Assembly: GCA_944388955.1 (NCBI GenBank)
Contig: CALXKJ010000004.1
Coordinates: 62,001-126,000 of the forward strand
Direction: 5' to 3'
Length of the DNA: 64,000 nucleotides
From: an uncultured Spirochaetaceae bacterium
GTDB lineage: Bacteria; Spirochaetota; Spirochaetia; Sphaerochaetales; Sphaerochaetaceae
Every line of letters begins with the position of its first letter. The first letter of the stretch is position 1. A program made the position numbers and the translations under genes. Shown in pieces: positions 23,729 to 28,306 of this stretch. Below the pieces are notes generated by a model. The model worked only from the letters and a program-made list of their open reading frames with translations. It was not told the DNA's origin and ran no database searches.

Positions 23729-24763
23729 ATGGACAGGATAATCAGGGTTCGGAGTACAAAGCTCGACAAGGAAGAGGAAAGTCTCAAGGCTATCGGAAGG
23801 CAGAAAGAGGCGGAACTCAGGGAGAATGGAATTCTCCTCAGCCGCGAGACGCTTTTCAAAGAGCTCATCATCGCCCCGCTGGCGGAGAAAGGAAAACTCG
23901 GATACTTCGACTCAAGACAGAAGACCATAGTCATTTCAGAAGAGCTTGTTTCCTCAGCATCCTGGGATGATACAGTAAATGTGCTTATCCACGAAATGGG
24001 ACACGCTTTAGACTACCTACAGCATGGGAATCTTGAGCATTCGGAGTCATTCAGGAAGTGCTGTGCCCTTCTCGGTATCGCTCCGGGCTTTGAGAAAAGC
24101 AAGGTCAGAATCTCTTTGAAGCAGAATGACAAGGAGAAAGATAAAGTCAGAAAACTTCTCGCGCTCTCTTCTTCGCCATTCGAGAACGAAGCAGCAGAAG
24201 CGATAAAGAAAGCGAAGGAATTGATGGCAGGGAAAGACATCAAGATTGATGATGAGGATGACGAGAAGATATACATGGTCTCTCTATTTGAGGCTGAGCG
24301 TTTCCCATCATACGTGAAAGCCTTGATTAACTATATATCAGAGTCTACAGGCATATACCCTGTACTTGAGCATCGCGATGCGACAATGAAAGCCGCTGTC
24401 ATCTATGGCACCCTTGAGGAAGTGGAAGCTTCGATATATCTCTGGGATTATCTTGTGTCATCTTCCGAGATGGAGATAGCGAAGCTGCGATGCAAGGGAA
24501 TGAGCATCACAAAAGACAGCTTCATACGCGGTGCTATCGCGGCACTGAAATCAAAGACTGAGGATTCCGCTTCAGATCATGCGATCATGCTTCTGAGAAA
24601 CGAGAATGAGGAAAGGGCTCTTAAGATAGTCTTCAGGGACATAAAGCTCAGGACAAGGAAGTATTACAGCCGCGGAGGTGACGCGAGAAGCTTCAGCATG
24701 GGACAGGGTTTCGGAAGCAAACTATCTGTACCTGAAAGAATCGGACGAAAACGTATAGAATAG
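23729..24763 (+). CDS. SprT-like zinc metallopeptidase fused to DUF2786
   Basis: 344 residues. An N-terminal zincin-like region has LIHEMGHALDYL (about 88-99), the HExxH motif with a third possible ligand downstream. From about residue 133, KVRKLLALSSSPFENEAAEAIKKAKELM is the DUF2786 signature. The C-terminus is basic and Gly/Ser/Arg-rich. SprT-like proteases (SPRTN in eukaryotes) act on DNA-protein crosslinks, and DUF2786 is frequent in phage and plasmid genes. Function here is unproven. The transposon begins right after its stop codon, so the original downstream context has been disturbed. Confidence 0.65.
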   Translation: MDRIIRVRSTKLDKEEESLKAIGRQKEAELRENGILLSRETLFKELIIAPLAEKGKLGYFDSRQKTIVISEELVSSASWDDTVNVLIHEMGHALDYLQHGNLEHSESFRKCCALLGIAPGFEKSKVRISLKQNDKEKDKVRKLLALSSSPFENEAAEAIKKAKELMAGKDIKIDDEDDEKIYMVSLFEAERFPSYVKALINYISESTGIYPVLEHRDATMKAAVIYGTLEEVEASIYLWDYLVSSSEMEIAKLRCKGMSITKDSFIRGAIAALKSKTEDSASDHAIMLLRNENEERALKIVFRDIKLRTRKYYSRGGDARSFSMGQGFGSKLSVPERIGRKRIE

Positions 24764-24777
24764 TTTTCCTGACTGCT

Positions 24778-24797
24778 CCCACAGGCAAGCCTGTGGG
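24778..24797 (-). repeat. Right-end hairpin of the IS200/IS605-type element
   Basis: CCCACAGGC-AA-GCCTGTGGG, a perfect 9-bp inverted repeat near the 3' end of the element. Subterminal hairpins like this are the substrates recognised by TnpA (known for the family). Confidence 0.8.
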
Positions 24798-24981
24798 GTT
24801 CTGGTGGATAGGCTTGCACCATGTCCGTACACCATTCTCAGGCTTTGGGACCAGGGCTGCCGCCCAGAGCACCTGAACTGCCGGCCAAGCACCCCGTTGA
24901 GCACATTAGCGGCCGGCTTCTGCCTTTCGGCATGGAGAGACAGTCAGCTCCCCCATATTATATCCATCTTCCTTCTGACTC
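24798..24981 (-). ncRNA. Candidate guide (omega/re) RNA region 3' of tnpB
   Basis: Between the tnpB stop and the right-end hairpin is a GC-rich non-coding stretch with a 7-bp stem GCCGGCC...GGCCGGC (24880-24886 with 24911-24917) and several smaller complementarities. In characterised TnpB systems this position encodes the scaffold of the guide RNA, whose guide is read from DNA outside the right end. Presence of an RNA is inferred from position and structure only. Confidence 0.45.
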
Positions 24982-26613
24982 TTAAGTTTCTCCTTCTTGA
25001 ACCCTTATTCCGCTGTTGAGCACTTTCTTCCCTGAAAGCCTTATCCTTTCCATTTCCTCTTCATGCATCCTGTTTATGGATGTGAAACTTTTAGTACAGC
25101 TCATCCCATCAATAATCAGCTCTCCCGTATCATCAAATGAGGCATTGTAAAGGAGGAATGAGGAATACAGGTCCCTCTGCACTGCTGTGCCATCTGAAAG
25201 GGTGAACATCCTCTGTGACAATTTCCTCTTCACATACTCTCCATTTGTGTGGTCATACTGGGAAGCCCTGTAGCCATATGGAACTTCAATGTACCTTCCT
25301 CCTGTCAGGGTGAACTTCATTTCAGCCTGGCTCTGGAAGTATCCGGGACAGCGGTTCCTTATCGACTTGCCGAATCTTTTCTTCCTGTTTGCCTTTCCCG
25401 TCTTTTCATTGACTGATGTCTCCTTTGAACGGATCATCAGCTTCCTTGCATTCCTCGGCTCTGTGATGAAGACGTCTCCAAGGCTCCTTATGTGGTTCAC
25501 ATCCTCCCTGATGGCTAGATGGCGGTTTATGGAGTTCTTCCTCTGAAATCCGGAAAGCTTTTTCCTGTCCTCCATATAGTTCTTCGAGAACGTCCATTTC
25601 CTGGATCCTTTCTTCACCGTTCCATCATCATTGAAGTTGTCCGGATTCATGGCTCTCCTTGAACGGTCGAGCTTCCGCAGCAGGAGCCTCTCCTTACGCT
25701 CGCTTCCGGTGATCGCTTCACCTCTCTCGGCAAGATTCCTGAGACCGCATTCCTTGTCGGAGGTGTAGGCGATCGTCTGGGTGCCGATGTCACAGCCGAC
25801 AACGCCTCTACCATACTTATGACGGGGAGATCCATCCTTGCTGAACTTCCTCTTTGCCTTTCCTTCAATGGTCAGATGTATGAAGACCCTCAGCCTTCCT
25901 CTTATCACTTCGCACTTCAATGCTGCATAGCATGGACGGCTAGTGTCAGGGATCTCCCCTGTCTCCTTGAAGAGCTTCACTGCCTTTGCTTCAATATCTT
26001 CGCTGTGCGCCAGATAATTGAGTACGGCATTCACCTCATCTTCTTCGAACTGATCAGTTATAATGGGTGAAAAGGTCATGCCGCTGCAGGAGAAAACCAG
26101 CCGCCCATCAATGTTCTTGACCGTTATGATCCTCTCAATCTGCTTGGCCCTGAGAATGGGAAGCTCTCCTCTCTTTGAGAAGCGGAGCATCTTTCCATCA
26201 GCGTAGATGACCTTCTCGACACCCTTCCAGATATCTTCTGCACGTGTGAGAGCAAATACACTGGGAAGACTATACTTCTTGCCGATTGGGATCATCGCCC
26301 TCCTGCAATAATCCCAACTGGCTCCATACTCAGCCTGCATCACATTCATCTGGGCAGAAAGATGAGACTTCAAAGCATTGTCATTATTCTCACACGCTCT
26401 GCCATAGAGGGCTTTCAGCTTCCTGTACCGCTTCGTCCTCAGAAGCTGCTCTATGCTGTTCCTCATTATGGCAATGAGCTCATTCCCTGCAAGACGAAGC
26501 CTGTTCGAGATGTTGAAAAGCCTTCTCTTGTCGTCCTCAGCCATGCAAGCCTCGATCACGAGGACATGCCTGCTGCTTTTCTTCCTCAGCAGATTAAGAT
26601 CATCGTTCGCCAC
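24982..26613 (-). CDS. tnpB: TnpB-type RNA-guided nuclease / OrfB transposon protein, lacking the zinc finger
   Basis: 543 residues, longer than usual TnpB (about 350-450). RuvC motif I is VVGCDIGTQTIAYTSD (Asp275), motif II VFITEPRNARKL (Glu385), motif III VQRDLYSSFLLYN (Asp481), so all three acidic residues are kept. The segment between motifs II and III normally carries a CxxC...CxxC zinc finger after a TSQ-like turn; here it reads RASQYDHTNGEY and then lacks the cysteines. The N-terminal third (helical, basic) fits the wedge/recognition region. Known role of TnpB: guide-RNA-directed DNA cleavage favouring element retention. Start overlaps the tnpA stop by 14 nt. Confidence 0.8.
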   Translation of the reverse strand: MANDDLNLLRKKSSRHVLVIEACMAEDDKRRLFNISNRLRLAGNELIAIMRNSIEQLLRTKRYRKLKALYGRACENNDNALKSHLSAQMNVMQAEYGASWDYCRRAMIPIGKKYSLPSVFALTRAEDIWKGVEKVIYADGKMLRFSKRGELPILRAKQIERIITVKNIDGRLVFSCSGMTFSPIITDQFEEDEVNAVLNYLAHSEDIEAKAVKLFKETGEIPDTSRPCYAALKCEVIRGRLRVFIHLTIEGKAKRKFSKDGSPRHKYGRGVVGCDIGTQTIAYTSDKECGLRNLAERGEAITGSERKERLLLRKLDRSRRAMNPDNFNDDGTVKKGSRKWTFSKNYMEDRKKLSGFQRKNSINRHLAIREDVNHIRSLGDVFITEPRNARKLMIRSKETSVNEKTGKANRKKRFGKSIRNRCPGYFQSQAEMKFTLTGGRYIEVPYGYRASQYDHTNGEYVKRKLSQRMFTLSDGTAVQRDLYSSFLLYNASFDDTGELIIDGMSCTKSFTSINRMHEEEMERIRLSGKKVLNSGIRVQEGET

Positions 26614-27022
26614 TCTTCTGCTCCTCTATGTATTTCTTTACCGTCGCCTCGCTCACATGCCCCACCGATGAGATGAAATATCCCCTGGACCACAGGACAC
26701 CGCATCTCGAATAGAACCTCTTCAGCTTCGGGAAAGCCCTGAACATCTCCACCGCGCTTATGCTCTTGAGCGTTCTCACGACATCACATGGCGCAACCGT
26801 CTGCGGGCAGTCCACGAATATGTGTATATGGTCGCTCATCACTTCAAGAGCCTTGATGGCATAGCCATACTTCATGCAGATGCCCTCAAGTATACTCTTC
26901 AGCTCAGCCTCCACATCCCCTTCAAGGACATCAAACCTGAACTTCGGACACCATATGATGTGATACTGAACAAGATACTTGCAGTGAGAAGCACTGTGGT
27001 ATCCATCATTTCCCATCGCCAT
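26600..27022 (-). CDS. tnpA: IS200/IS605-family transposase TnpA (Y1 HUH)
   Basis: 140 residues, the family length. It opens with KYLVQYHIIWCPKFRFDVL (about 15-33), has the HUH motif DHIHIFVD with His65 and His67, and a tyrosine at 131 (TVKKYIEEQ) in the catalytic position. It catalyses single-stranded, strand-specific excision and insertion using end hairpins. All key residues are intact and the frame is open, so the element may be active. It overlaps the upstream ribbon-helix-helix gene by 17 nt and tnpB by 14 nt. Confidence 0.93.
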   Translation of the reverse strand: MAMGNDGYHSASHCKYLVQYHIIWCPKFRFDVLEGDVEAELKSILEGICMKYGYAIKALEVMSDHIHIFVDCPQTVAPCDVVRTLKSISAVEMFRAFPKLKRFYSRCGVLWSRGYFISSVGHVSEATVKKYIEEQKSGER

Positions 27023-27188
27023 CCCCCAGCTGGAACTTCTCCTTTATCGCCCGCCTCATGAGGTCGAGGAATGTGACTGTCCTGCCTTCCTCCACAGAGT
27101 ATATCCTGGCAAGGTTCTCAAGTTCCTTCTTCCATTCTCCAGGAATGGCGATGTTTATCTGTACATTCTCTGATCTTGGTCGTGCCAT
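27006..27188 (-). CDS. Small ribbon-helix-helix-like DNA-binding protein of the transposon
   Basis: 60 residues: MARPRSENVQINIAIPGEWKKE looks like a beta-strand (NVQINIAIP) followed by two helices (about 18-32 and 38-55), the plan of CopG/Arc-type ribbon-helix-helix repressors. It is the first gene of the transposon operon, with Shine-Dalgarno AAGGAG 5 nt before the ATG. The promoter carries a perfect palindrome, consistent with autoregulation of transposition. A third gene of this kind is not standard in IS200/IS605 elements. It could instead assist TnpA at the left end. Confidence 0.6.
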   Translation of the reverse strand: MARPRSENVQINIAIPGEWKKELENLARIYSVEEGRTVTFLDLMRRAIKEKFQLGDGDGK

Positions 27189-27199
27189 CGGGTCTCCTT

Positions 27200-27236
27200 A
27201 TACATATATTGTCTAACTGATATATGTATTCGTCAA
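27200..27236 (-). promoter_or_regulatory. Promoter and palindromic operator of the transposon operon
   Basis: Minus strand -35 TTGACG (27231-27236), 17-nt spacer, -10 GACAAT (27208-27213). A perfect inverted repeat ATACATATAT-10 nt-ATATATGTAT (27200-27229) has one arm in the spacer and the other at the -10/start region, so a bound dimer or tetramer would block RNA polymerase. The same palindrome may be the left-end hairpin for TnpA. Confidence 0.7.
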
Positions 27237-27247
27237 CTTTTTTTTCT

Positions 27248-27275
27248 TTGCTGTCTTCTCCAACAAAGCTATAAT
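27248..27275 (+). promoter_or_regulatory. Leaderless promoter of the PNPOx-like gene
   Basis: -35 TTGCTG (27248-27253), 16-nt spacer, perfect -10 TATAAT (27270-27275), then CCGGAT and ATG. No Shine-Dalgarno. Confidence 0.65.
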
Positions 27276-27281
27276 CCGGAT

Positions 27282-27857
27282 ATGGAAGAAATGCATATCT
27301 GCCAGAGCTGCGGAAGAATCATTGATTCGCCGGAACTGTTCGGCACTCATGGCGACGGACACAGAAACGAGGATTACTGCATCAATTGTTTTAAGAACGG
27401 CGTCTTCTCATGCAGTTCAGAGGTTGTACAGCCTGTTGGCCTCAAGCGATGGATGAAAGATGAGGACAAGGCTTCATGGATCCTTGACAGGTGCGGCTAT
27501 GTAACACTCTCAACCATCAATGAGGAGGGATTTCCCCGCCCCGTCGCAATAGATGTCATAGCGCATGATGGGATAAGGGAGATATGGATGACGACATACC
27601 GCAACTCGGCAAAGGCAAGGCATCTCATGGTCAATCGGAAAGCCGGAATCTCATTTGTCAGGGAAGCTGACAGCGCGAGTCTCACGGGGAAAGCTGAAGT
27701 CGTTACAGACAAGGATACGCTGAGACGATATTGGAAAGACTTCTTTTCCCACTATTATCCTGATGGTCCATACGATGAGAACTACTGTCTCATCAGGTTC
27801 TCCACACAGAAAGCTAGACTATGGATTGATGGCAAGCATTCTGTCATCACATTCTGA
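27282..27857 (+). CDS. Zinc-ribbon plus pyridoxamine-5'-phosphate-oxidase-fold protein
   Basis: 191 residues. The first 45 hold a putative zinc ribbon (CQSCGRIID...YCINCFKNG). From about 62 to 185 is a split-barrel flavin-binding domain of the PNPOx / general-stress-protein-26 type: SWILDRCGYVTLSTINEEGFPRP, WMTTYRNSAKARHL, AGISFV, ASLTGKAEVV. Such proteins bind FMN or F420-like cofactors and reduce or sequester small molecules; the substrate is unknown. Single gene between the transposon and its own terminator, with a leaderless promoter. Confidence 0.8.
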   Translation: MEEMHICQSCGRIIDSPELFGTHGDGHRNEDYCINCFKNGVFSCSSEVVQPVGLKRWMKDEDKASWILDRCGYVTLSTINEEGFPRPVAIDVIAHDGIREIWMTTYRNSAKARHLMVNRKAGISFVREADSASLTGKAEVVTDKDTLRRYWKDFFSHYYPDGPYDENYCLIRFSTQKARLWIDGKHSVITF

Positions 27858-28139
27858 ATCTGTTGCTTTCATCCCATCGGCAAGCCAATGGGTTTTTCGC
27901 AACAATTCTATAACAGGGAAGATAAGGGCTCTCAGCTTACAGTCAAACTCATAAATTCTCCTGATCCGGGAAAATGAAAGATTTTCACTTTTGTTCTTGA
28001 ATGGGAGTAAATATGCTGAGAAGCGATAGTAATTGACACTTTCAAGGAATTCCAAAGCCATCGGGTCATCTATGATGATTCCTTTTCCCTTCAGTGCCTT
28101 CAACCGCTGTTCATATGAGAAAAACGGTTTCAACTGCAT
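27819..28139 (-). pseudogene. Truncated Abi_2-family (abortive-infection type) gene
   Basis: From the ATG at 28139 (Shine-Dalgarno GGGAGA) the frame encodes MQLKPFFSYEQRLKALKGKG..., with VNYYRFSAYLLPFK and RRIYEFDCKLRALIFPVIE, clear N-terminal features of the AbiD/AbiF family (PF07751), known from phage abortive infection. After about 85 residues the similarity stops; the last 20 codons run antisense into the terminator and end of the PNPOx-like gene. A full protein would be about 300 residues, so some two thirds are missing. Most likely a deletion remnant. Confidence 0.7.
27873..27897 (+). terminator. Rho-independent terminator of the PNPOx-like gene
   Basis: CCCATCGGC-AA-GCCAATGGG (one mismatch in a 9-bp stem) followed by five T, 15 nt after the stop codon. 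Confidence 0.85.
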
Positions 28140-28306
28140 AAAAATGTCTCCCACTGGGCCACATCACATTAGTAGTGAGAGGTGCGGGGAGTCCTGTCAT
28201 CCAGATAATAGCAAATTCTGAGATATATGTCCAACAAAAGCATAATACAAACAAAGCCTTTCAAACACTGGTGAAGCATTAGAGGCTTCATTACCCTAAT
28301 CTGTAA

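Follow-up and report, generated by a model that had tools for sequence, protein, structure and literature searches.

IS200/IS605 elements are usually described with transposition genes only. The locus analyzed here lies in a 64,000-nucleotide stretch of DNA (the window) and has a gene for a ribbon-helix-helix (RHH)-type protein ahead of tnpA and tnpB, which raises the question of what this third gene does. The initial annotation suggested either transcriptional control or a third component of the transposition machinery. We favor control: RHH is probably an autorepressor that acts at an inverted repeat over the -10 box of the sole operon promoter and the obligate third gene of one clade of these elements. 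We found no description of an RHH gene within an IS200/IS605 element in the open-licence literature.

Genes and ends of the element

The window contains three overlapping frames on the minus strand, in the arrangement that the initial annotation described.

27006..27188, minus strand: RHH-type protein, 60 aa
26600..27022, minus strand: tnpA, Y1 (HUH) transposase, 140 aa, with H65, H67, and Y131
24982..26613, minus strand: tnpB, 543 aa, with RuvC residues D275, E385, and D481 and without zinc-finger cysteines

In the window, tnpA overlaps the RHH gene by 17 nt, tnpB overlaps tnpA by 14 nt, and the start codon of tnpB is GTG. TnpA matches Pfam Y1_Tnp (4.7e-37) and NCBIfam transpos_IS200 (7.4e-42). 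The HUH motif and one catalytic tyrosine are present, and His65, His67, and Tyr131 are exactly the residues that had been claimed for an intact transposase.

The bounds first proposed for the element, 24764 to 27236, missed both ends. Our right end differs from the proposed one by 5 bases, and our left end extends the element by 673 bp. Because the true left end is that far beyond the first one, a fourth gene, a passenger, belongs to the element.

24769..27909, minus strand: complete element of 3141 bp, starting just past GTTAT on the left and ending with TCAG on the right
27910..27914, minus strand: GTTAT, presumed target motif/TAM flanking the left end, which precedes nearly every left end found
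27873..27892, minus strand: left-end hairpin CCCATTGGCTTGCCGATGGG in an outer GTTGC/GCAAC stem, a family-wide motif
24778..24797, minus strand: right-end hairpin CCCACAGGCTTGCCTGTGGG, the same as helix 8 of the reRNA
27282..27857, plus strand: passenger gene, 191 aa, zinc ribbon and pyridoxamine-5'-phosphate-oxidase-like domain, divergent from the operon

The left-end motif, GTTATA plus a hairpin, is common to more than 25 relatives. In relatives without a passenger, the left end lies ~100 bp ahead of RHH and reads GTTATAAATT, followed by a hairpin such as CCCATAGGTTTGCCTGTGGG in an outer stem; in the window, the motif lies 726 bp ahead of RHH. When the window left end (27855 to 27909) was folded as single-stranded DNA, it reached -11.9 kcal/mol (z, -3.9), and no shuffle equaled it. 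The right end reads ...CCCACAGGCTTGCCTGTGGGAGCAGTCAG, and the sequence past TCAG is unrelated from copy to copy. An automatic check found the right end ...AGTCAG in 29 of 34 cases, the misses including loci whose contig stops before the right end. Hairpins are subterminal at both ends, and there are no terminal inverted repeats.

We found that blastn homology to the spirochaete copies L069, L070, and L111 ends at 27914 to 27922. GTTAT stands before the left ends, and the flanks differ between copies, with no clean empty site in the alignment. In at least 14 relatives that lack the element, the SprT-like gene and aroA, which flank it in the window, are directly adjacent. A domesticated, immobile locus had been considered, as several spirochaete leaders hold the same foreign gene; the differing flanks and the end of homology at the left end spoke against it, and we ruled it out. 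Nor is the perfect ATACATATAT repeat the TnpA hairpin of the left end, since the true one resembles the right-end hairpin and lies 704 bp upstream of RHH.

TnpB gave no match in Pfam, and its score against NCBIfam guided_TnpB was 42.8 bits, below the cut-off of 100. Its profile matches RdCas12n in the PDB (E, 3.3e-4), and its predicted structure, of modest confidence (mean pLDDT, 65.8), matches CnCas12f1, ISFba1 TnpB, and ISDra2 TnpB. The three RuvC acids are invariant among TnpB relatives. We found no zinc-finger cysteines (CxxC...CxxC) before the third RuvC motif in residues 448 to 481, and these cysteines are also missing in relatives from Geobacillus phage E3, C. difficile, and Finegoldia. 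The protein shares the RuvC D-E-D residues and a model likeness with TnpB/Cas12f-type nucleases but differs from them in its 543-aa length, in having no CxxC zinc finger, and in falling under the NCBIfam cut-off. By its sequence, it is a TnpB-like RuvC protein, a term that makes no claim to canonical TnpB, and it may be active as a guided nuclease.

24769..24981, minus strand: reRNA (omega-RNA) scaffold, 213 nt, from the tnpB stop to the right end
24753..24768, minus strand: presumed reRNA guide by analogy with ISDra2, namely the right-end flank, where the SprT-like gene has its 3' end

The fold of the reRNA has 47 pairs, with 97.5% of cells paired and double (compensatory) changes at 25 pairs. 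Its covariation was 0.449 versus 0.208 in shuffles; 0 of 500 shuffles was as high, and the value collapses when slid. On the pattern of ISDra2 (PMC8612924), GTTAT would serve as the TAM and the flank past TCAG as the guide.

Distribution and conservation of the trio

We scanned an RHH alignment against 84,980 species genomes and found 54 RHH loci, all in Spirochaetota and Bacillota. Beyond the species genomes, RHH loci came from one viral contig (IMG/VR) and the phage-labelled faecal contig MT836210. As phage and plasmid collections gave only these two, RHH as a phage-specific gene was ruled out, and a TnpB query against viral contigs gave no match. Counted over elements that share ancestry, and so not as independent events, RHH stands directly before tnpA in ~40 loci, including the window, and the tnpA start precedes the RHH stop by 4 to 29 nt in 36 of 39 readable copies. 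The other RHH loci, without tnpA behind, are contig ends, fragments, or deletion derivatives; many of the sampled genomes are draft MAGs, and several element copies stop at contig ends.

Mean column identity in the RHH alignment was 83% (34 sequences). We found that dN/dS was 0.00 to 0.07 for RHH, computed on the first 54 codons (outside the tnpA overlap), 0.04 to 0.15 for tnpA, and 0.05 to 0.13 for tnpB, and that, wherever a pair could be computed, RHH had the lowest value of the three. Recurrence of the trio in two phyla, with purifying selection on it, shows that its frames are not due to chance.

A small frame that overlaps the tnpA start could also be a conserved overlapping or leader ORF, such as a translational attenuator for tnpA, and not a DNA-binding protein, and the structure search described below gave no confirmation of a fold. 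The purifying selection seen outside the overlap is strong and acts on amino acids, however, and the frame combines an RHH-like residue pattern with a matched operator-like repeat. We consider a leader ORF very unlikely.

To escape the bias of searching with RHH, we used TnpA-based searches. Among the 48 genomes of the window's genus, RHH accompanies each of the 4 TnpAs, the window's included, that reach 88% identity or more; in the next TnpA family (at most 54% identity), it is absent. Among 200 genomes of the family of a Butyrivibrio carrier, the search returned only RHH-bearing genomes that were already known. Among 43 genomes of the family of Sharpea, it returned 4 new copies, and RHH and the left end were present in all 4. 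We found no full-length tnpA of the RHH clade (at least ~62% identity) without RHH. The in-clade exceptions are decayed, with a 5'-truncated tnpA at L141 and a frameshifted RHH at L149. RHH was not found standing free of tnpA and tnpB except in fragments or at contig ends.

Since RHH occurs with all full-length TnpAs found in the clade and with none at ~54% identity or below, it marks one IS200/IS605 clade. The initial annotation had held that the gene is not standard for the family and had made its reading depend on the RHH frame being conserved and present beside intact tnpA-tnpB. Within the clade it is both, and the other IS200/IS605 clades lack it. RHH as a general trait of the IS200 elements of the genus was ruled out, as a second TnpA family (~51% identity) has none.

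Several derivatives of the element were also seen. TnpB-only copies that keep both ends, without RHH and tnpA, are present in three genomes (G014, G017, and G020), and in the TnpB-only derivatives L021, L022, and L024, RHH and tnpA are gone together. Two Bullifex porci copies (L112 and L113) have lost tnpA and have RHH residues 1 to 37 joined to TnpB in one frame; a third copy, L115, carries a frameshift. At L083, one frame fuses TnpA and TnpB.

The RHH-type protein and its candidate operator

RHH scored under the cut-offs of Pfam and NCBIfam. Its profile gave a weak match in the PDB to CopG-type ORF56 (E, 0.19), and the two share 'IPxEWxxxL..A' when aligned. The stretch N8-V-Q-I-N12, which we take to be the place of the DNA-contacting strand in RHH proteins, is invariant among the RHH sequences. 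In the monomer model (pLDDT, 71), residues 8 to 15 are extended and helices are predicted at 17 to 34 and 40 to 53; a Foldseek search with this model gave nothing significant. The protein is like the CopG/ORF56 plasmid repressors in its size, its predicted strand-helix-helix pattern, and the operator-like repeat at its own promoter. In contrast to them, it sits with a transposase/TnpB operon, its inter-helix loop is longer, and its profile scores fall below the family cut-offs. On the strength of its sequence pattern, the 60-aa protein probably has the fold of the RHH (MetJ/Arc/CopG) superfamily and would dimerize.

27208..27236, minus strand: promoter-like site TTGACG-N17-GACAAT of the RHH-tnpA-tnpB operon (consensus scan, 9 of 12)
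27200..27229, no strand assigned: candidate RHH operator, perfect inverted repeat ATACATATAT-N10-ATATATGTAT (10+10) over the -10 box

The promoter-like site of the window agrees with a conserved TATAAT in relatives. We found RCATA-N16-TATGY in the leader, over the -10 box, in 26 of 31 complete elements (0.19 expected), a count that is not wholly independent evidence because the leader sequence is shared by descent. In the same 31 elements, the motif occurred 0 times in the coding body and 0 times at the right end. By eye, several leaders without the exact motif show near matches. The half-sites are conserved, and positions 14 to 18 between them carry little information. The invariance of the half-sites is partly by construction, since these were the searched bases, yet positions 12 and 13 were not searched and are conserved. 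The spacer between -35 and -10, normally not conserved in promoters, contains the left half-site, which falls outside the promoter hexamers.

When a co-directional passenger is present, the promoter and the repeat lie ahead of it (-357 to -624), where they head the operon. The window lineage has the repeat beside the RHH promoter, ~680 bp from the left end. Thus, the placement of the repeat tracks the promoter of the operon rather than the end of the transposon, which is the main reason that we prefer autorepression.

RHH might instead be a structural transposition cofactor that works near the left end and aids TnpA assembly or strand choice. Such a role would fit its extreme conservation and strict coinheritance with tnpA, the position of the repeat near the left-end hairpin in passenger-less copies, and the joint loss of RHH and tnpA in the TnpB-only L021, L022, and L024. 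However, joint loss would be expected of an autoregulator as well. The right end is also without the repeat, the distance between repeat and left end in the window lineage is large, and relatives with TnpA up to 54% identical do without RHH. We consider a cofactor unlikely. Of the two roles first suggested, then, control is supported directly by the repeat over the -10 box, and a third component of the machinery is not, as the repeat is absent at the right end and far from the left end of the window.

Together, these data suggest that RHH binds DNA and acts as a repressor. In the autorepression mechanism that we propose, RHH dimers would bind the inverted repeat, whose half-sites are about two helical turns apart and overlap the -10 box, and would repress the RHH gene itself, tnpA, and tnpB. 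The overlapping frames probably couple translation of tnpA and tnpB. The operon would start out unrepressed in a newly entered cell, with a burst of expression; as RHH accumulates, the transposase and TnpB would be damped. TnpA would excise and insert a single strand at GTTAT with the end hairpins, and TnpB with the right-end reRNA would cut the GTTAT-flanked empty site, after which the element would be copied back. Many lineages carry passenger genes in the interval between the left end and RHH. In the window, the start of the passenger faces the same 94-bp region as RHH, and so RHH may control the passenger too.

The conservation of RHH exceeds what an autorepressor alone would need, which could mean that it has a further partner.

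Passenger genes and related elements

The passenger protein of the window matches PF16242 (1.3e-17), PF01243 (9.3e-16), and PF12674 (1.9e-11). We found this type of passenger inside the same left end in L069, L070, L071, L110, and L111. In Lachnospiraceae and other Bacillota, the interval between the left end and RHH holds different, co-directional genes of ~89 to 195 aa, mostly without family matches, and in some lineages it holds no gene. On a tree of RHH plus TnpA, there are at least 3 changes for the 123-aa passenger type and at least 2 for the 195-aa type on well-supported branches, so the genes appear to have been swapped between backbones. The same tree parts the spirochaete lineage of the window from the Bullifex lineage, which fits two or more transfers between phyla.

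The gene in the interval could be a host gene caught between a solo left end and the trio and not cargo. The window-type passenger is present in 25 of the 48 genomes of the genus, and several of these lack RHH, tnpA, and tnpB nearby. However, a left end still adjoins the passenger in most close copies that lack the trio: in L192, L194 to L197, L203, and L205, the passenger is kept beside it and the remainder of the element is gone. These relic-like loci probably represent passengers retained after decay of the transposon. In addition, homology among complete copies begins at the left end with differing flanks, and unrelated genes fill the same slot in other lineages. We consider a host gene quite unlikely and regard the interval as carrying cargo.

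RHH proteins are common antitoxins, and in some lineages a small gene lies directly before RHH. RHH could thus serve as the antitoxin-like member of a pair for addiction or partition, with the upstream passenger gene as its partner. Tn3-family transposons carry toxin-antitoxin pairs with RHH antitoxins in their transposition module (PMC7157771); these resemble the window clade in having a small DNA-binding protein, a proposed regulator, beside the transposase but differ in transposase chemistry and in having the toxin partner that the window clade lacks. Many copies of our element are without a second small gene (left end to RHH, ~100 bp). The upstream interval genes are unrelated to one another and gave no Pfam toxin match, and the neighbor in the window is a divergent oxidoreductase. 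RHH also fails to appear free of tnpA and tnpB, fragments and contig ends aside. An antitoxin role is highly improbable, and autorepression remains the reading that we prefer.

The element is an IS605-group member of the IS200/IS605 family. It is a variant by gene content, as it goes beyond the usual tnpA, alone or with tnpB (all intact copies of the clade have RHH, and the copy in the window has a passenger), a distinction made by no formal criterion. Like IS608 and ISDra2, it has a Y1 HUH transposase, subterminal imperfect hairpins, a short presumed target motif at the left end, and TnpB with a guide RNA derived from the right end. The window clade departs from them in its obligate RHH gene and the candidate operator of that gene, in its passenger genes between the left end and the operon, in its presumed GTTAT target motif and TCAG right end, and in a TnpB without zinc-finger cysteines. 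Transporter insertion sequences are insertion sequences with passenger genes. They are alike in carrying inside their ends a gene that is dispensable for transposition; the window clade, in contrast, is an IS605-type single-strand element with swappable genes in a fixed interval.

To our knowledge, restraint of the transposase or TnpB in IS200/IS605 elements is known for few cases, such as the RNA-based control of IS200. A clade with a built-in candidate repressor, a mappable operator, and a cargo interval offers a testable model for protein-level control of a TnpB system, and the interval offers one for gene capture by single-strand transposons as well. More speculatively, RHH may be a switch that balances transposase, guide-RNA nuclease, and swappable cargo, which would make these elements small, regulated vehicles, maintained by their guide RNA, that move host-useful genes among gut bacteria; we hold this wider reading to be possible but doubtful. 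Cultured bacteria of the gut and rumen that carry the clade are Butyrivibrio, Sharpea, Kandleria, Holdemania, and Fusicatenibacter.

Left end and passenger interval

We found that the left end of the IS605-type element truncates an Abi_2 (abortive-infection-like) gene, of which the first third alone is left (positions 1-53 of the 184 in the PF07751 profile).

27819-28154, (-), Abi_2 gene remnant (Pfam PF07751, 8.9e-11)

The rest of this gene was sought across the element, on its other side, and was not found there.

In Bacillota copies, the passenger interval, upstream of the ribbon-helix-helix (RHH) gene, is occupied by at least five mutually unrelated small proteins of about 89 to 195 aa.

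L078, L081, L085, L073, L075, L087 (Bacillota loci), small proteins upstream of RHH

We also found loci in the window's genus (L192, L194, L195, L196, L197, L203, and L205) that retain the left end and an oxidoreductase-like passenger and have no RHH, tnpA, or tnpB. These look like relics of the element after loss of those three genes.

Fused frames

RHH residues 1 to 37 are joined in frame to TnpB in two Bullifex porci loci, from which tnpA is absent. A third, L115, has the same tnpA-less fusion type but is frameshifted. The three lie on separate contigs, and their flanks differ. Elsewhere, tnpA and tnpB share one open frame; in L083, the junction falls directly at the TnpB start.

L112, 4001-5722, RHH-TnpB fusion
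L113, 4001-5722, RHH-TnpB fusion
L083, 2804-4825, tnpA and tnpB in one frame
L100, 956-3085, tnpA and tnpB in one frame

Wider TnpB group and a second TnpA

The window TnpB (24982-26613) and its relatives L034 to L039 belong to a broader group in which the RuvC residues are intact and the zinc-finger cysteines are absent. We found this group in Bacillota phages and plasmids too. The window's own genome also encodes a second, distant IS200/IS605 TnpA (L002, G000:C23:23898-24275; 32% identity).
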